A DNA stretch of 64,000 nt from Bacteroidia bacterium (GTDB lineage: Bacteria > Bacteroidota > Ignavibacteria > SZUA-365), in assembly GCA_027493955.1 (NCBI GenBank), contig JAOSJT010000001.1:3335131-3399130 (forward strand), read 5' to 3'. Below the pieces are notes generated by a model. It searched no databases and was not told the DNA's origin. It saw nothing but the letters and a program-made list of their open reading frames with translations. Positions 55,844 through 64,000 of this stretch are shown piece by piece. Positions within the stretch are counted from its first letter, which is position 1. Each line of letters begins with the position of its first letter. The position numbers and the translations under genes were made by a program.

Positions 55844-57541
55844 ATGAAACGGATTTTTGTTCCCTGGTCGGTACTGTTTCTGACATTTTTTTTCCTGCAA
55901 TCGGCCTTCGCGCAGGACATCATCATCAATGAGTTCCTTTTCGCACCCGGAAGTGGCGAAGCCGAATGGATAGAGCTCTGGAACGGAAGCGGGAGCACCA
56001 TCTCCTTACAGGGCTGGTACATCACGGATGCCACCCATAATCCGGTCCGGGTAACCTCCGAAACGGTGATACTGGCAGCGGATGAGTACCTTGTCCTCGC
56101 GAGCTCCCTTCCACTGGCCTCGCGCTGGGAGCAGTTGGCTGTTCGCGTGCTTGTTGTGCCGGGCTTTCCTTCCCTGAACAATACCGGTGACGAAATCATC
56201 TTGCGTGATTCCACGGGAAGGACCATTGATTCCTTGCGCTATGAAGCCTCATGGAATGCAAAAAAAAGCTCGAGCGTGGAGCGCCGACGACCACGGCTGC
56301 CGTTCGATCAAGTCAATGCCCGAGCGACGCTGCATCCAGATGGTGGCACACCTGGCGCAAGGAATTCCCAGACACCTCCGGATTTCGATCTCGCGCTCGA
56401 CTCACTGATCGTCAGGGAGAACGGTTTCACTGTTCGTGTGAAAAACATCGGTTTGCGTACCCCGGAAAGCGCCGACATATACATGCTATGTTGTACCGCA
56501 GGAGGAGATTCGGCGTTGAAGCACATTCCGGTCATGCCGCCAGAATCCGATGAGACGCTTTTCCTCGACATCGAGCTGTCCTGTGAGAGGGCGGTTTCTG
56601 TACTGGCTGTCCTGCGCTGTGCGCAGGACGCCAATAACGGCAACGACAGTCTCTATCGTGAGCTGCATCCGCCCATGCGAAGGAGAGACGTGCAATTCAA
56701 CGAGATCATGGCTGCGCCGCTCGGCGGCAGGGCGGAATGGGTGGAGCTCATAAACCGTGCAGAGTCGCCGATACGTCTCGACGGCTGCTCACTTGCCGGA
56801 GCCTTTGGAAGCAACGGCCTGCGCCGTCTGTTGCGACTGCCGAACAATCTCCCCTTGCTGCCTTCGGGAGGGTATCTGCTTATCACTTCCGATTCGGGTG
56901 TTTTCGTGGATTGGCCAAACCTGCGCGAAGAACAATCCTGCGTCGTGGCATCTCTTGGCAGAACGTCGCTGGATCTGGGGAATACCGGCGATGAACTCGT
57001 GTTCCTCGATGCTCTCGGGAACGTCGTCGACAGTATGGTGTATTCCGAGACATGGCATCACCCGCTTGCGGCCAGCACTGCCGGCAGATCACTGGAACTG
57101 ATCCATGCGGATTTGTACACTCAAGGGGCTTCCGCCTGGACGACCTGCGTTCATTCTTCCGGAGGTACGCCGGGTCGGCGTAATTCCGTTTGGTCAGAGA
57201 CCGGTGCTTCCGGTCATTCTTCGGAGCACCTTCTTTGCACTCCCAATCCGTTCTCGCCGGACGGTGATGGGTACGAAGATCACACCCTCATTTCATGGAC
57301 GCTCCCTTCAACCGCCTCTCTTCTCCGTCTGCGTGTCTATGATGCCGCCGGACGCTGTATTCGGACGCTGTTGAACAACGACGTCGCGGGGAGGCAAGGT
57401 GTCACGGTTTGGGATGGATTGGACAGAGAAGGCCGAAGAGCCCGCGTGGGTGTGTATGTGGTACTCGCCGAGGCGCTCGACGCATGGACGAATACCGTCG
57501 CCGTCGCGAAAACCGCAGTGGTGCTCGCTACCAGATTGTGA
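55844..57541 (+). CDS. Secreted lamin-tail-domain protein with FlgD-like C-terminus
   Basis: A 565-residue protein with a signal peptide (FLQSAFAQ). It has two lamin-tail domains (about 25-130 and 280-400), each with an NEF/NEIM start, W-x-E-L-x-N and G-D-E strands (INEFLFAPGSGEAEWIEL; FNEIMAAPLGGRAEWVEL). Between them is a CARDB-like stretch. The C-terminal 95 residues (TPNPFSPDGDG, ISWTLP, YDAAGRCIRTL, GVYVVLAEAL) resemble FlgD-type Ig domains that act as sorting domains in this group. GGGAG precedes the start. It is convergent with the hybrid kinase, only two bases apart. Confidence 0.85.
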   Translation: MKRIFVPWSVLFLTFFFLQSAFAQDIIINEFLFAPGSGEAEWIELWNGSGSTISLQGWYITDATHNPVRVTSETVILAADEYLVLASSLPLASRWEQLAVRVLVVPGFPSLNNTGDEIILRDSTGRTIDSLRYEASWNAKKSSSVERRRPRLPFDQVNARATLHPDGGTPGARNSQTPPDFDLALDSLIVRENGFTVRVKNIGLRTPESADIYMLCCTAGGDSALKHIPVMPPESDETLFLDIELSCERAVSVLAVLRCAQDANNGNDSLYRELHPPMRRRDVQFNEIMAAPLGGRAEWVELINRAESPIRLDGCSLAGAFGSNGLRRLLRLPNNLPLLPSGGYLLITSDSGVFVDWPNLREEQSCVVASLGRTSLDLGNTGDELVFLDALGNVVDSMVYSETWHHPLAASTAGRSLELIHADLYTQGASAWTTCVHSSGGTPGRRNSVWSETGASGHSSEHLLCTPNPFSPDGDGYEDHTLISWTLPSTASLLRLRVYDAAGRCIRTLLNNDVAGRQGVTVWDGLDREGRRARVGVYVVLAEALDAWTNTVAVAKTAVVLATRL

Positions 57542-57543
57542 GG

Positions 57544-59220
57544 TTACGCCGTCCCAAGCAGGTTCATCATGCTCGCTTTCAATTCCTCGATTTGAAAGGG
57601 TTTGGAGAAATACGCGTTACACCCTGCTTCAAGACTTTGGATGCGATCTTTCGGAAATGCGTGGGCCGTAACTGCGATAATCGGGACAGTGGAAAATCGC
57701 TCGTCACTGCGAATTCGCTTGGTGAGCGAAATCCCATCTTCGTCTCCCTGCAAGGAAAGATCCATCAGCACGAGATCGATACGTTCGCCCTCAATAATAG
57801 CCCAGGCGGCGGCGGCATTGGACGCCATGCGCAGATTATACTGTTTCGACAACAGTGAGGACATATATTCCTGTGTCTCCTCATCATCTTCTACGAACAG
57901 GACGGTACGGTTCCCTTCGACGTCTCTCGATGGTTGAACCGCATGCACAACCGGCATAGGCTTGCCGAAACCATCGTCGAATACATGTGCATCCTCCACG
58001 ACATCCGCGAGAAACTGCAGGGTAAACGTCGAGCCTTTTCCCTTCCTGCTTTTCACCGTGATGGATCCCCGGTTCAACTCGACATAGCGCTTGGTGAGCG
58101 ACAAGCCAAGCCCGAGGCCGTCAAAGGGCCGTGTATAGCCCGTGGCTTCTTGGGAAAATACGCTGAACACTTTCGGAAGATAGTCGGGGGACATTCCGAT
58201 ACCCGTGTCGGCGATTTCTATGCAGACACGCCGATCCACATTGTAGACGCGAACATTCACCTCTCCGTGCTTAGTGAACTTGATCGCGTTGTCAATGACA
58301 TTCGACACCGCCTGATCTATGCAGTATCGGTCCGCGTACACGATCGCGGCGGGGCACTCGGTTGTGAAGTTGAGGGCAAGACCCTTTTTCTGGGCAAGCG
58401 ATTGTAGTTCCTGTACAAGCTCTTCAACGCGCTCCGACACACGCACTTCCTCCGGACGCACCTGAAACGTCCCTACTTGTATGCTCGAAATATTCAGGAT
58501 GTGCTCCACGGTGCGCATCAGACGCTGGCTCCCGCGCCGTATGGCCTGGAAATAGGTTTCCATCTCCGGGTACATCTTGCCGACCAACTCACCGGTAATG
58601 AGATTACCGTAACCGATGATGATGTGCAGCGGTGTGCGGATTTCATGGGAGATATTGGCAATGAATGCGTCCTTCAGTTTGTCGGACTGCTCGGCGCGCT
58701 CCTTCGCATGAATGAGTTCCGCCTTCTGCCGCTCCTGCATCGTGATGTCTCTGATCACGATATGTTTTGCGTTCATTTCATCGAACAGCATCGGCACGGC
58801 CGTCAGTTCGATATCGATGATGGAGCCATCAAGACGTTCAAGTTGTCCCTTGATATCGGCAATTTCCATATCGGATTCGAGCTGCTCCTGCATACGGTTG
58901 AGATCCGGCCTGTCGAAATTCGTCTGCATGAAGTCATACACCGATCGGGTGAGAAGATCCTCCTCGTTGATCGCGCCGAACAGTTTCATGCACGCGTCAT
59001 TGACAAAGTGGATGCGACCACCGACAGTCACAATCAGTGGGAAAGGCGAAAGCTTGACCAGGCGCCGATAGCGCTTTTCGCTCTCGGCAAGCTTTTCGAG
59101 ATTCTGATGCTGAATAAGAAATACCTTCCGCTGCTGGAAGATGATGACAGCAATGATTCCCAGAGCGAGTGTCAGTAGGACGACAGTCCCGCCGATGATG
59201 AGGAGATACGTGTCCGACAT
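57544..59220 (-). CDS. Hybrid sensor histidine kinase with C-terminal receiver
   Basis: A 558-residue kinase. One N-terminal membrane helix (about 8-28) and a short coiled linker lead to a PAS domain (about 45-160, ending IVIRDITMQER). The HisKA phosphoacceptor is His192 in SHEIRTPLH; the ATPase domain has NVIDNAIKF, DTGIGMS and GLGLGLSL. The last 125 residues are a receiver with phosphoacceptor Asp in LVLMDLSL, Thr in VTA, and Lys in FSKPF. The start at 59220 follows GGAGG; it overlaps the membrane protein gene upstream by 49 bases. The receiver suggests a phosphorelay whose partner is not nearby. Confidence 0.93.
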   Translation of the reverse strand: MSDTYLLIIGGTVVLLTLALGIIAVIIFQQRKVFLIQHQNLEKLAESEKRYRRLVKLSPFPLIVTVGGRIHFVNDACMKLFGAINEEDLLTRSVYDFMQTNFDRPDLNRMQEQLESDMEIADIKGQLERLDGSIIDIELTAVPMLFDEMNAKHIVIRDITMQERQKAELIHAKERAEQSDKLKDAFIANISHEIRTPLHIIIGYGNLITGELVGKMYPEMETYFQAIRRGSQRLMRTVEHILNISSIQVGTFQVRPEEVRVSERVEELVQELQSLAQKKGLALNFTTECPAAIVYADRYCIDQAVSNVIDNAIKFTKHGEVNVRVYNVDRRVCIEIADTGIGMSPDYLPKVFSVFSQEATGYTRPFDGLGLGLSLTKRYVELNRGSITVKSRKGKGSTFTLQFLADVVEDAHVFDDGFGKPMPVVHAVQPSRDVEGNRTVLFVEDDEETQEYMSSLLSKQYNLRMASNAAAAWAIIEGERIDLVLMDLSLQGDEDGISLTKRIRSDERFSTVPIIAVTAHAFPKDRIQSLEAGCNAYFSKPFQIEELKASMMNLLGTA

Positions 59221-59867
59221 GCGAGAAAACCTCCGAGAAAGAGGAGATTCTTTATGACGTTGAGCAGCGAGTGCAACACCCAGATCCATTTCGAGTCTAT
59301 CGTATCCTGCTGCAGCGTAGGTGCGAGGGCGAACAGAATCAGGTTTCCGGCAAAGTACACTACGAGTGCGGAAGATACCCAAAAAATTGGATTTTTCTGC
59401 ACGGGTATGGTATCTCTCATCATAGAGCGGAAGAGCGTTCCCACCGCGATAATCACGAGCAGGACACTTTCCACCGTCAAAATGACGTTGTCGAGGTTGT
59501 GCGGTGTGGATATTGCCTGGGTGATGATCCAGAACAACAGAAACACAGGGATCAAAATACCGATGATTCTTTTTTCCGTTTTTCCGTCATGCCAGGTAAA
59601 AAACATCAATCCCAGAAGCAGGAATTCAACGGGCGGGAAGGCATTGTAAATCCTGGCATTCGGCTCTTTCAGAATAATTCCAACATAGTAACCTGCCAGA
59701 TCGAACAGCAGGGTAATCGCCAGAAATAGAAGAAGCAAACGAAGCCAGGTTTTCTCGTTGCGGAACTGCCACAATCCGACTCCCAGTGGCAGGAGAGGGA
59801 GAAGCAGGGATATCCAGGTGACAACTTCTCTTACGTCTTGTAGTTTGTCTTGCATGCCCGCAGCCAT
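59172..59867 (-). CDS. Seven-helix membrane protein, likely partner of the hybrid kinase
   Basis: A 231-residue protein with about seven hydrophobic helices and short loops. No family motif is seen with certainty. Its 3' end overlaps the kinase gene by 49 bases, so they are almost surely co-expressed. Because the kinase has only one membrane helix and no large sensor domain outside, this protein may supply the sensing part. Starts at 59867 and 59855 are both possible. Confidence 0.75.
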   Translation of the reverse strand: MAAGMQDKLQDVREVVTWISLLLPLLPLGVGLWQFRNEKTWLRLLLLFLAITLLFDLAGYYVGIILKEPNARIYNAFPPVEFLLLGLMFFTWHDGKTEKRIIGILIPVFLLFWIITQAISTPHNLDNVILTVESVLLVIIAVGTLFRSMMRDTIPVQKNPIFWVSSALVVYFAGNLILFALAPTLQQDTIDSKWIWVLHSLLNVIKNLLFLGGFLACRTRISSSSAGLSSY

Positions 59868-59972
59868 GATTCCAGGCAGAATAGTGGATCCGATGTCACC
59901 GGCAGGCGCCTTTTCGGATCAAGGATAACATCCTACTCAAATTACAATATTTCACACCCCGCAACAAACCAG

Positions 59973-60008
59973 CGCCCGCACGCTGCGCGTTTTCGCAGCG
60001 AGCGGGCG
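59973..60008 (-). terminator. Very stable hairpin after the tandem gene array
   Basis: Two 7-base-pair stem blocks (59973-59979 with 60002-60008, and 59981-59987 with 59994-60000), separated by one mismatch, with a 6-base loop. On the minus strand it lies 20 bases past the last gene of the array and is followed by CTGGTTTGTTG, a weak T-rich tail. It likely ends the array transcript before the membrane/kinase pair. Confidence 0.7.
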
Positions 60009-60028
60009 ACTGGCGATATCTCCAATCT

Positions 60029-60469
60029 TCAGGAGTTTAACGGGTTTGACTCGGCATGGAATCTCGAGATCGGGAGTGGACGACCGAAAATGAATCCTTC
60101 GTCCAGGTCCTGCCCCAATCCATTGACGCCAACGAGCACCATCTCCTGCTTTCCTTCAGCGTCAATACCGTAGTAGTAGCGAATTCCGACGGTATCTTCC
60201 TGTGCGAGCAGTTGCTCAATCGCGGCGCGACTGAAAAACTTGCCCTTAACCGATCCGTTTGCTGCGCTCTGACGGTAATTCCGTGTCAGACTGCTCGCTT
60301 CCTCCAGGCTGATCGAATGATCTTCCATCCCGGTAAACACAGGCCTGCTGCGTTCGATCCGATGAGGCTGCGCCGGAGCGATGGGAGCGTCAACATAGAG
60401 ATCTGCTCCTGCGTATGGCTTTTTCGCCTCTTCACTGGCGTCTTGACGCCGAAAAATATTCTCAAACAT
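60029..60469 (-). CDS. Tandem family protein, divergent copy A
   Basis: A 146-residue soluble protein, the most divergent of five neighbouring paralogues and last in the array. It shares YVDAP-APAQP, EDHSIS-EEAS-LTRNYR, FF-RAAIEQ-L-QE, VGIRYYY, LVGV and the end NPLNS with the others. It differs in a longer N-terminus (MFENIFRRQDASEEAKKP) and in having no Cys in the tail (GRPLPISRFHAE in place of the Cys-rich CPPYCG). No signal peptide or membrane helix. AAAGGA seven bases upstream supports the start. I do not recognise the family. See copies B to E. Confidence 0.8.
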   Translation of the reverse strand: MFENIFRRQDASEEAKKPYAGADLYVDAPIAPAQPHRIERSRPVFTGMEDHSISLEEASSLTRNYRQSAANGSVKGKFFSRAAIEQLLAQEDTVGIRYYYGIDAEGKQEMVLVGVNGLGQDLDEGFIFGRPLPISRFHAESNPLNS

Positions 60470-60512
60470 AGTTTTTTCCTTTCATGTATTATCGGTCACT
60501 GACACACGAGAA

Positions 60513-60931
60513 TCAGCTGTTGAGCGGGTTGAAGCTGCCACAGTACGGCGGGCACGGAACCGCGCGCTCGCACACGAAGCCTTCGTAAAGATCCTTGCCG
60601 TTCTCGTCGACGCCCACCACGATCAGCACCGGGCGATCATTGTTCTCTTTCGCGTAGTAGTAGCGAATGCCCACAACACCTTCCTGCGAGACCTGCTCGA
60701 TGGCCGCGCGGCCGAAGAATCCTCCTTGATCGCGCCGGCGCCCGCCTGCATACGATAGTTGCGCGTCAGAGCGCTCGCTTCTTCGATGGAAATGCTGTGA
60801 TCCTCCAGACCTGTGTATACCGGACGCGTGCGTTCGCGTACTTCCGGCTGCGCCGGGGCGACCGGGGCGTCCACATACAGCTTGTCAATGACTTGCGAGG
60901 GGATGATCTGGGTGGTTTCGTTCGTCTTCAT
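60513..60931 (-). pseudogene. Tandem family copy B, frameshifted
   Basis: Nearly identical to copy D along its whole length, but with a loss of one codon (Leu, near 60690) and a loss of one C in a C run near 60724, which shifts the frame. The remaining frame ends at 60623 after 102 residues with unrelated sequence. The stop region of the normal frame (ending NPLNS, 60513) is still intact, so the break is recent. Ribosome site and spacer are kept. Confidence 0.85.
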
Positions 60932-61010
60932 GATATGGCTCCTGTGTATTTGCTTCGTGTGTGTGTGTGTCTGGTTGACTGTTGAAGGTTCGACGCGCTT
61001 TGGATGGATT

Positions 61011-61433
61011 TCAGCTGTTGAGCGGGTTGAAGCTGCCGCAGTACGGCGGGCACGGAACCGCGCGCTCGCACACGAAGCCTTCGTAGAGATCCTTGCCGTT
61101 CTCGTCGACGCCCACCACGATCAGCACCGGGCGATCGTTGTTCTCTTTCGCGTAGTAGTAGCGAATGCCCACAACACCTTCCTGCGAGAGCACCTGCTCG
61201 ATGGCCGCGCGGCCGAAGAATCCTCCCTTGATCGCGCCGGCGCCCGCCTGCATGCGATAGTTGCGCGTCAGAGCGCTCGCTTCTTCGATGGAAATGCTGT
61301 GATCCTCCAGACCTGTGTATACCGGACGCGTGCGTTCGCGTACTTCCGGCTGCGCCGGGGCGACCGGGGCGTCCACATACAGCTTGTCAATGACCTGCGA
61401 GGGGATAATCTGGGTGGTTTCGTTCGTCTTCAT
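61011..61433 (-). CDS. Tandem family protein, copy C
   Basis: A 140-residue protein beginning MKTNETTQIIPSQVIDK. Key parts are YVDAPVAPAQP (19-29), EDHSISIEEASALTRNYR (43-60), GGFFGRAAIEQVL (70-82), VGIRYYY (88-94) and a Cys-containing tail (Cys122, Cys128, Cys132, with CPPYCG), ending NPLNS. It is acidic to neutral, has no signal peptide, and has the ribosome site AGGAG eight bases before the ATG. The frame is open further upstream into copy D's spacer, but the ATG at 61433 matches the other copies. Almost identical to copy E at marker bases. Function unknown. Confidence 0.85.
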   Translation of the reverse strand: MKTNETTQIIPSQVIDKLYVDAPVAPAQPEVRERTRPVYTGLEDHSISIEEASALTRNYRMQAGAGAIKGGFFGRAAIEQVLSQEGVVGIRYYYAKENNDRPVLIVVGVDENGKDLYEGFVCERAVPCPPYCGSFNPLNS

Positions 61434-61510
61434 GATATGGCTCCTGTGTATTTGCTTCGTGTGTGTGTGTCTGGTTGACTGTTGAAGGTTCGTCGCGCTT
61501 TGGATGGATT

Positions 61511-61933
61511 TCAGCTGTTGAGCGGGTTGAAGCTGCCGCAGTACGGCGGGCACGGAACCGCGCGCTCGCACACGAAGCCTTCGTAAAGATCCTTGCCGTT
61601 CTCGTCGACGCCCACCACGATCAGCACCGGGCGATCATTGTTCTCTTTCGCGTAGTAGTAGCGAATGCCCACAACACCTTCCTGCGAGAGCACCTGCTCG
61701 ATGGCCGCGCGGCCGAAGAATCCTCCCTTGATCGCGCCGGCGCCCGCCTGCATACGATAGTTGCGCGTCAGAGCGCTCGCTTCTTCGATGGAAATGCTGT
61801 GATCCTCCAGACCTGTGTATACCGGACGCGTGCGTTCGCGTACTTCCGGCTGCGCCGGGGCGACCGGGGCGTCCACATACAGCTTGTCAATGACTTGCGA
61901 GGGGATGATCTGGGTGGTTTCGTTCGTCTTCAT
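61511..61933 (-). CDS. Tandem family protein, copy D
   Basis: A 140-residue paralogue with the same protein sequence pattern as copy C (SISIEEAS, KGGFFGRAA, YYY, CPPYCG tail). Silent marker bases (such as ACTTGC at the DKL-VI region and ATAC in the Met-Arg region) agree with copy B rather than with C or E. Own AGGAG ribosome site and 79-base upstream spacer. No signal peptide. Confidence 0.85.
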   Translation of the reverse strand: MKTNETTQIIPSQVIDKLYVDAPVAPAQPEVRERTRPVYTGLEDHSISIEEASALTRNYRMQAGAGAIKGGFFGRAAIEQVLSQEGVVGIRYYYAKENNDRPVLIVVGVDENGKDLYEGFVCERAVPCPPYCGSFNPLNS

Positions 61934-62012
61934 GATATGGCTCCTGTGTATTTGCTTCGTGTGTGTGTGTGTCTGGTTGACTGTTGAAGGTTCGACGCGC
62001 TTTGGATGGATT

Positions 62013-62435
62013 TCAGCTGTTGAGCGGGTTGAAGCTGCCGCAGTACGGCGGGCACGGAACCGCGCGCTCGCACACGAAGCCTTCGTAGAGATCCTTGCCG
62101 TTCTCGTCGACGCCCACCACGATCAGCACCGGGCGATCGTTGTTCTCTTTCGCGTAGTAGTAGCGGATGCCCACAACACCTTCCTGCGAGAGCACCTGCT
62201 CGATGGCCGCGCGGCCGAAGAATCCTCCCTTGATCGCGCCGGCGCCCGCCTGCATGCGATAGTTGCGCGTCAGAGCGCTCGCTTCTTCGATGGAAATGCT
62301 GTGATCCTCCAGACCTGTGTATACCGGACGCGTGCGTTCGCGTACTTCCGGCTGCGCCGGGGCGACCGGGGCGTCCACATACAGCTTGTCAATGACCTGC
62401 GAGGGGATGATCTGGGTAGCGGTTGGGTTTTTCAT
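62013..62435 (-). CDS. Tandem family protein, copy E, first of the array
   Basis: A 140-residue paralogue; the first nine residues differ (MKNPTATQII), the rest matches copy C. Its leader is different from the other copies: an AAGGA ribosome site and an AT-rich upstream region with TATTTTTG at 62537-62530, matching a Bacteroidota -7 box. This makes it the likely promoter-proximal gene of the whole array. It has the Cys-containing tail and the NPLNS end. Confidence 0.85.
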   Translation of the reverse strand: MKNPTATQIIPSQVIDKLYVDAPVAPAQPEVRERTRPVYTGLEDHSISIEEASALTRNYRMQAGAGAIKGGFFGRAAIEQVLSQEGVVGIRYYYAKENNDRPVLIVVGVDENGKDLYEGFVCERAVPCPPYCGSFNPLNS

Positions 62436-63099: not shown

Positions 63100-63327
63100 G
63101 TACACCAATCAGAATTTTTCATATGGATCAGCCCTCCCTTGTTTGAAGATTTTTTTCCCTAAGTGGATACAAACGATCTACTTACCGCCTGAAGTGACGG
63201 ATAACGTGCTCTCCGGGCGCAGCGGACAGACGAAAGGGACCGTTGATACCGGTCAGGAGGGTGAGCCGCTCACGGGAAATATCCTTACGCATTGGAAGTT
63301 ATACCCTGCGGACGTAGTTTCATTTTT

Positions 63328-64000
63328 ATGAAAAGTATCGTGTTTCTGCTCCTCTCTTTTCAAGCGATAGCGTCGTTCGCGCAAGCGCAGCCGGATCCGT
63401 GCCCGACTCCGCCATTCATTCGGGGCCTTCGCGTGTTCGGCGGAAGCGATGAACGAAACCTACCCGTACTCGCGAAAGCGGACAGCGGAAGAACGACCGC
63501 CTCCTCAACCCTGCCTGATTTCATCACGATTCGATTCGATGTGGAGGAACAGGCACCACCACGATTGAAGATCCGCTTCCGGCATTGCGACAAGGATTGG
63601 AACATCGATACCGACCTGTTCGTCCGCGACGATTTTTTTACGTTCACGCGTACGCTGTTTTACGAGCCATCAATTGCCGGCGATAGAGGGTTTTCCTGGA
63701 GATTTGAGAATCGTTTCCCGAGCGTGGATCATCCTTTCGTCCGCTTTCTGTATTCGGGAAACTGGATCTTTGAGATCACGGATGAATTTGACGATTCACA
63801 GGTCTACGCCTCGGGGCGTTTCATTTGCGTCGAACCCATTGTTCGCTGCGGGCTGCAGGTCTACAACGATTTCTGGACGGACTTCGATTCGCCTCTGGAT
63901 CAGGTGCACCGGCTACGGCTCCACATCGATGTGCCGGACCGGTTATTTGCTGATTTTGTACGGACTGCGGATTTCTACAAGAATTTTAACCTGTTCGACG
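63328..64000 (+). CDS. DUF5103 / T9SS plug-like protein, 3' end outside window
   Basis: The frame is open for 224 codons to the right edge. It begins with a signal peptide (LLLSFQAIASFAQ). The mature part has the pattern of DUF5103 proteins: LKIRFRHCDKDW (compare 'IQHCNADW' in the family), a strand set around FTRTLFYEP, FVRFLYSGNWIFEI and GRFICVEPIV. DUF5103 is now linked to the T9SS plug, which closes the SprA translocon. The match is from memory and no C-terminal part is visible. No strong ribosome site precedes the ATG. It fits the T9SS cargo in this window. Confidence 0.65.
   Translation, partial: MKSIVFLLLSFQAIASFAQAQPDPCPTPPFIRGLRVFGGSDERNLPVLAKADSGRTTASSTLPDFITIRFDVEEQAPPRLKIRFRHCDKDWNIDTDLFVRDDFFTFTRTLFYEPSIAGDRGFSWRFENRFPSVDHPFVRFLYSGNWIFEITDEFDDSQVYASGRFICVEPIVRCGLQVYNDFWTDFDSPLDQVHRLRLHIDVPDRLFADFVRTADFYKNFNLFD

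Follow-up and report, generated by a model that had tools for sequence, protein, structure and literature searches.

This locus raises the question of why a bacterium should carry, side by side, several near-identical genes for a small protein that belongs to no assigned family, and what such a protein might do. The genes lie in a 64,000-nucleotide stretch of a Bacteroidota genome (hereafter the window), where five adjacent copies, as assembled, were found on the minus strand at positions 60029-62435. The position, the adjacency and the shared motifs given in the initial annotation were borne out, as was its assignment of a ribosome-binding site to every gene (an AGGAG/AAGGA-type site preceded each ATG). 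Copy 1 (62013-62435, transcribed first), copy 2 (61511-61933) and copy 3 (61011-61433) each encoded a 140-aa protein of the CPPxC type; the six N-terminal codons of copy 1 were unlike those of copies 2 and 3, and the mechanical ORF at copy 3 (61011-61571) began too far upstream. Copy 4 (60513-60931) was of the same type; compared with the adjacent copies it had deletions of 1 nt and 3 nt, with the frame lost after residue 69 and the open frame limited to 60623-60931 (102 aa); one G of a GGG run was missing, together with three bases close by. It is either a pseudogene or the result of a sequencing error. Copy 5 (60029-60469, 146 aa) was a divergent paralogue of 58% identity that lacked the CPPYC motif of the others and ended in SRFHA..NPLNS, not PCPPYC..NPLNS. 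The first four copies were spaced 502, 500 and 502 nt (approximately 500 nt apart). Copies 1-3 were 97-100% identical at the protein level, with identical 102-residue cores, and, codons 3-6 aside, every difference between them was synonymous. Since copy 4 is frameshifted, the array originally described as five genes of 140-146 residues, four of them nearly identical, consists of four intact genes, three of which are nearly identical, and one copy that is broken or mis-sequenced.

An assembly artefact, a possibility that had been raised at the outset, does not account for the array as such: the source genome is a single 5.24-Mb contig, and intact arrays were found within long contigs of independent relatives. 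No small-protein match was found in the source genome outside the array. Counting copies and neighbours in related genomes, as the initial annotation had proposed, showed that arrays recur with a conserved gene order; several genera had 2-4 genes, the CPPxC copies being near-identical and the closing paralogue shared, and these counts are lower limits, since many draft assemblies of relatives are interrupted by a contig end within the array. Among genomes with at least two complete CPPxC copies, to which the comparison was limited, the window, G003 and G006 each had identical CPPxC cores and G010 nearly identical ones, and the cores differed from one genome to another. Judged by these sequences, the array copies are under concerted evolution. 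The last paralogue formed a single clade across three genera (100/100 support) and closed the array in relatives; on this phylogeny it is a separate, old paralogue without CPPxC.

Selection for dose and recent amplification had both been suggested as reasons for the near identity. Amplification with near identity is what was found, and the concerted-evolution pattern fits selection for dose combined with ongoing duplication or conversion; the contribution of dose is one that we infer. It is highly improbable that the array is a tandem duplication that brought no benefit and was evened out by recombination, next to an otherwise ordinary two-component operon. The broken copy 4 would be expected under such a scenario, and synonymous states common to copies 1 and 3 and to copies 2 and 4 suggest the duplication of a two-gene block, but the recurrence of 2-4-gene arrays in several genera with the same closing paralogue, and the purely synonymous differences between intact copies after codon 6, both argue against neutrality.

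The description of the protein as unassigned held in every family library searched. Matches in Pfam, NCBIfam, PHROGs, PADLOC and PDB sequences were at chance level at most, and a fold search of the predicted structure against the PDB returned nothing under E 0.4, although the core of approximately 100 residues was modelled with confidence (pLDDT 88 overall and above 90 over most of the core; pTM 0.67). Plasmid and phage records contained no relative, and no viral-contig candidate could be confirmed; a mobile-element origin was rejected on the basis of these empty searches. A role in anti-phage defence was also rejected, as PADLOC gave no match for the small protein or for the membrane protein described below, and the hits of the kinase were generic. 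The small protein was present in each of the eleven further genomes sampled from the host's bacterial family, in 50 of 294 genomes sampled from its class and in 47 of 395 sampled from its phylum, the sensitive profile having been applied to Bacteroidota genomes only. The copies in the window had no signal peptide, while other members began with a membrane anchor or a lipoprotein signal. Two small-protein domains within one polypeptide were observed at L051:8147-8938, L093:4381-5133 and L129:1156-1890, and in G014 two such domains were fused in one 263-aa protein.

The clearest signature of the family was its C-terminus, which read PCPPxC..N(P)LNS in the host's family and PCPPYGDP.SPLN or RPSPPYGDP elsewhere. 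A CX3-5C pair was present in 62 of 91 distinct C-termini, some of the remaining 29 being merely cut at contig ends. A pair this frequent could sense an oxidant or a metal and signal via the membrane protein, and a small redox-sensing accessory protein has a precedent in HbpS-SenS-SenR (PMC4991794). In a set of homologues with one or both cysteines replaced, however, the prolines were retained (PCPPYGDP, RPSPPYGDP), as was a PP tail with (S/N)PLN where the cysteines were lost, and the conserved last paralogue has neither cysteine. With cysteine loss so common and the prolines retained, redox or metal sensing is unlikely to be the general role, and we regard this explanation as improbable; over evolution the tail has tolerated the loss of its cysteines more readily than that of its prolines, which favours a recognition tail over a redox switch.

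The initial annotation attached no function to the array. Its gene neighbourhood now narrows the choice, as the small-protein gene almost always adjoins a gene for a seven-helix membrane protein, and a histidine kinase gene usually lies nearby too. In the window, the membrane protein (59172-59867, minus strand, 231 aa) was the one member of its family in the source genome, and it was followed on the same strand by a membrane-bound hybrid histidine kinase (57544-59220) with one transmembrane helix, PAS, HisKA, HATPase_c and receiver domains, and no large external sensor domain. The likely start of the kinase, Met 59220, places a 49-nt overlap with the membrane-protein gene (the mechanical ORF begins at 59382). 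By domain content the window holds a predicted two-component system, with HisKA and HATPase_c in the kinase and the receiver fused to it. Kinases at other loci had HisKA_3 or HisKA with HATPase_c, and outside the host's family a separate REC and GerE (LuxR-type) regulator was next in line. Two further neighbours conserved in the host's family, a convergent gene for a lamin-tail-domain protein with a FlgD-like C-terminus (55844-57541, plus strand) and a divergent gene for a type IX secretion plug protein (63292-63999, plus strand, cut by the window end), are not thought to be part of the module.

In every larger Bacteroidota locus whose contig reached far enough, the small-protein gene or genes led directly into the membrane-protein gene, then usually a kinase gene and, outside the host's family, one for a response regulator. 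This order was seen in many Bacteroidota families, the membrane protein sometimes being present in two or three copies, and membrane-protein genes lay directly downstream of the small protein also in loci outside the training set of the membrane-protein profile. Upstream of 104 distinct membrane-protein genes we found a recognisable small protein in 75 cases, another membrane-protein copy in 10, an ORF with a CxC/PP tail in 14 (most of them small-protein-like, and one or two, for example that at L196, looking like chance ORFs) and none of these in 5; the upstream proteins of several membrane-protein genes bore a lipoprotein signal or membrane anchor. Downstream, among the 78 membrane-protein genes with room, a kinase followed in 61 and another membrane-protein copy in 7, and the membrane-protein and kinase ORFs overlapped in 35 of 66 pairs. 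Outside the host's family the small-protein gene was usually single, with a gap to the membrane-protein gene of a few nt to approximately 30 nt in most loci. At L194:2368-2664, L203:3521-3739 and L210:3564-3818, short proteins (72-98 aa) with a CPxPPGC-type tail preceded the seven-helix gene, their membership of the family being barely or not recognisable. At L202:3444-4984 the seven-helix protein was followed by a kinase and regulator that were LytS/LytTR-like by inspection, against the usual HisKA_3/LuxR type, and at L206:2954-4447 and L209:1752-3897 a lipoprotein stood with one or two seven-helix proteins and no kinase was recognised alongside. As the pair is kept in these last two loci, the small protein and the membrane protein form the most constant pair. 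From the conserved gene order, the small protein very probably belongs to a module with the seven-helix protein and the kinase.

The membrane protein was found in 60 of 296 sampled genomes. Nearly all of its 231 residues fell within seven membrane helices, with the N-terminus predicted outside by the positive-inside rule, and it was without a Pfam family or a sequence match in the PDB. Its model was of high confidence (pLDDT 92, pTM 0.88) and receptor-like in fold: the best Foldseek matches in the PDB were almost all GPCRs, together with a microbial rhodopsin and GPR155. The GPCR matches had probabilities near 1 and TM-scores up to 0.59, but E-values of 0.01-0.1, and seven-helix bundles are mutually alike. 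The protein resembles 7TMR-DISM (PF07695), a seven-helix bacterial membrane module with the N-terminus outside that feeds histidine kinases, and differs from it in being freestanding, with no DISMED domain and no fusion to an output domain. The PF07695 profile touched one of 55 members (E 4.5e-4) and left the member in the window unmatched, and the 7TMR-DISM_7TM profile gave nothing above the cut-off over 12 genomes of the host's family. Membership was rejected on the grounds of the unmatched profile and of the missing extracellular DISMED domain and fused intracellular output. At most by analogy, the membrane protein may act like a receptor module.

Between the array and the membrane-protein gene, the strong hairpin previously reported after the last copy was present (59968-60014, minus strand; centroid -43.7 kcal/mol, z -3.5), but it does not close the cluster, which runs on into the membrane-protein and kinase genes of the same strand. 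With its weak U tract it may be a partial terminator; it matched no RNA family in Rfam. Scans for sigma-70-type promoters and terminators scored no higher on the real sequence than on shuffles. A candidate Bacteroidota-type promoter, off-consensus, was found at 59937-59968 (minus strand; TTTG-N20-TAATTTGA), and an intergenic TTTG/TTG-N19/20-TATATT-type motif, in agreement with the Bacteroidota promoter consensus (PMC7366714), preceded the membrane-protein gene in most host-family relatives having the closing paralogue. In seven relatives (L039, L040, L041, L043, L044, L045 and L048) a conserved hairpin lay downstream of the motif, and 5 of its 17 predicted pairs were altered on both sides; the window differed from these in that the hairpin stood ahead of an imperfect promoter motif, not after it. 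A promoter motif before the membrane-protein gene, together with a hairpin, points at the level of sequence to separate control of the array and the receptor-kinase genes. Upstream of the arrays at L039, L040, L041, L044, L047, L049 and L050, an GCTCTTTGAAATA-type element (boxA-like) was observed between -200 and -234; six of these seven loci also had an inverted repeat, xGATAT-N11-ATATCC, 82-83 nt further downstream. Neither the GCTCTTTGAAATA-type element nor the inverted repeat was present in the array leader of the window itself.

If the small protein were an output of the kinase, the kinase would control the transcription of small proteins that are bulk effectors with a job of their own, and the adjoining regulator would serve autoregulation. 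An upstream region of the array distinct from the candidate promoter of the membrane-protein gene would suit this, as would the leader footprint with its fixed 82-83 nt spacing in six relatives, and bulk products often come from multicopy genes. Outside the host's family, however, a single gene is usually packed tightly against the membrane-protein gene, and the persistence of the pair without a recognised kinase ties the small protein to the membrane protein, not to the regulator. An output role is therefore unlikely in our judgement, though it ranks first among the alternatives.

The reading that we favour, with a confidence of about one half, is that the array supplies an input or ligand-like subunit of the seven-helix-kinase module and acts through tail recognition. 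The module would comprise the small protein, the freestanding receptor-like seven-helix protein, the histidine kinase and the response regulator (in the window, the receiver fused to the kinase). A small soluble protein, its folded core displaying the proline-rich C-terminal tail (PCPPxC...NPLNS), would engage the seven-helix protein through that tail, and the engaged seven-helix protein would set the activity of the kinase. Amplification and homogenisation of the CPPxC gene would place the small protein in excess over one receptor-kinase pair, and the final paralogue without CPPxC may be a second, perhaps competing, ligand. We infer from gene context and conservation the binding of the two proteins, the contact through the tail, the direction of input over output and the effect of dose. 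Against an input role, the signal-less copies of the window and the anchored or lipoprotein members elsewhere give conflicting membrane sides for the contact; a first-in-operon position is equally compatible with output; and L206 and L209 keep the pair with no recognised kinase.

In agr-type quorum sensing, genes for a precursor, a polytopic membrane protein, a kinase and a regulator stand in a row. The gene order here is similar, and the tail of the small protein might be cut off and exported, perhaps as a ring closed by the CX3C cysteines, and the seven-helix protein and kinase would then sense it. Across the host's family, the three positions that separate CPPFC from N(P/E)LNS ranked among the most variable alignment columns and were flanked by invariant residues, and array amplification would raise the yield of peptide. 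The 100-residue body is a confidently folded, highly conserved domain, not a leader, however; no protease or exporter gene was seen to recur when the neighbourhoods were inspected; many members lack the cysteines; and the polytopic protein is receptor-like. We consider a peptide precursor quite unlikely, as the folded core and the inspected neighbourhoods do not match the short precursor with a cleavable tail and the dedicated protease of agr-like quorum sensing. It ranks below an output role and above, in falling order, a redox sensor and neutral amplification.

For the favoured role as an input subunit, the closest functional analogies were three described systems. In RocA-CsrS of group A Streptococcus, the seven-TM accessory protein RocA binds the sensor kinase in the membrane and alters its output; RocA differs in having a cytoplasmic domain; it is described as an orphan regulator, and no small partner like the array protein is described with it (PMC6635533). 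In HbpS-SenS-SenR of Streptomyces, the genes for a small accessory protein, a membrane kinase and a response regulator occur together; HbpS, likened here by description only, is secreted and redox-sensing, and its system as described has no seven-helix protein or gene array (PMC4991794). In BtsS, a LytS-type kinase, seven TM helices with a periplasmic N-terminus form the kinase input; a single polypeptide combines receptor and kinase, and pyruvate takes the place of a protein ligand (PMC10653868). The combination of a small protein, a freestanding seven-helix protein and a kinase was absent from all three as described in these sources. A literature search, covering open-access papers and few subscription papers, returned no description of the module, the CPPYC motif or seven-helix-kinase operons in Bacteroidota. 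On this basis we class the module as a newly seen form of two-component signalling.

More tentatively, and well short of an even chance, split receptors of this kind may be used across the phylum, with a proline/cysteine-tail ligand, a freestanding GPCR-shaped seven-helix protein and a kinase, the host's family tuning the signal by amplifying and homogenising the ligand gene beside an antagonist-like paralogue. The gene context links two unnamed protein families of many Bacteroidota with one another and, in most cases, with a sensor kinase, and may give a handle on kinases without a sensor domain of their own. With one to four small-protein genes per receptor, these genomes would also provide a natural gene-dosage series in which to study the ratio of ligand to receptor.
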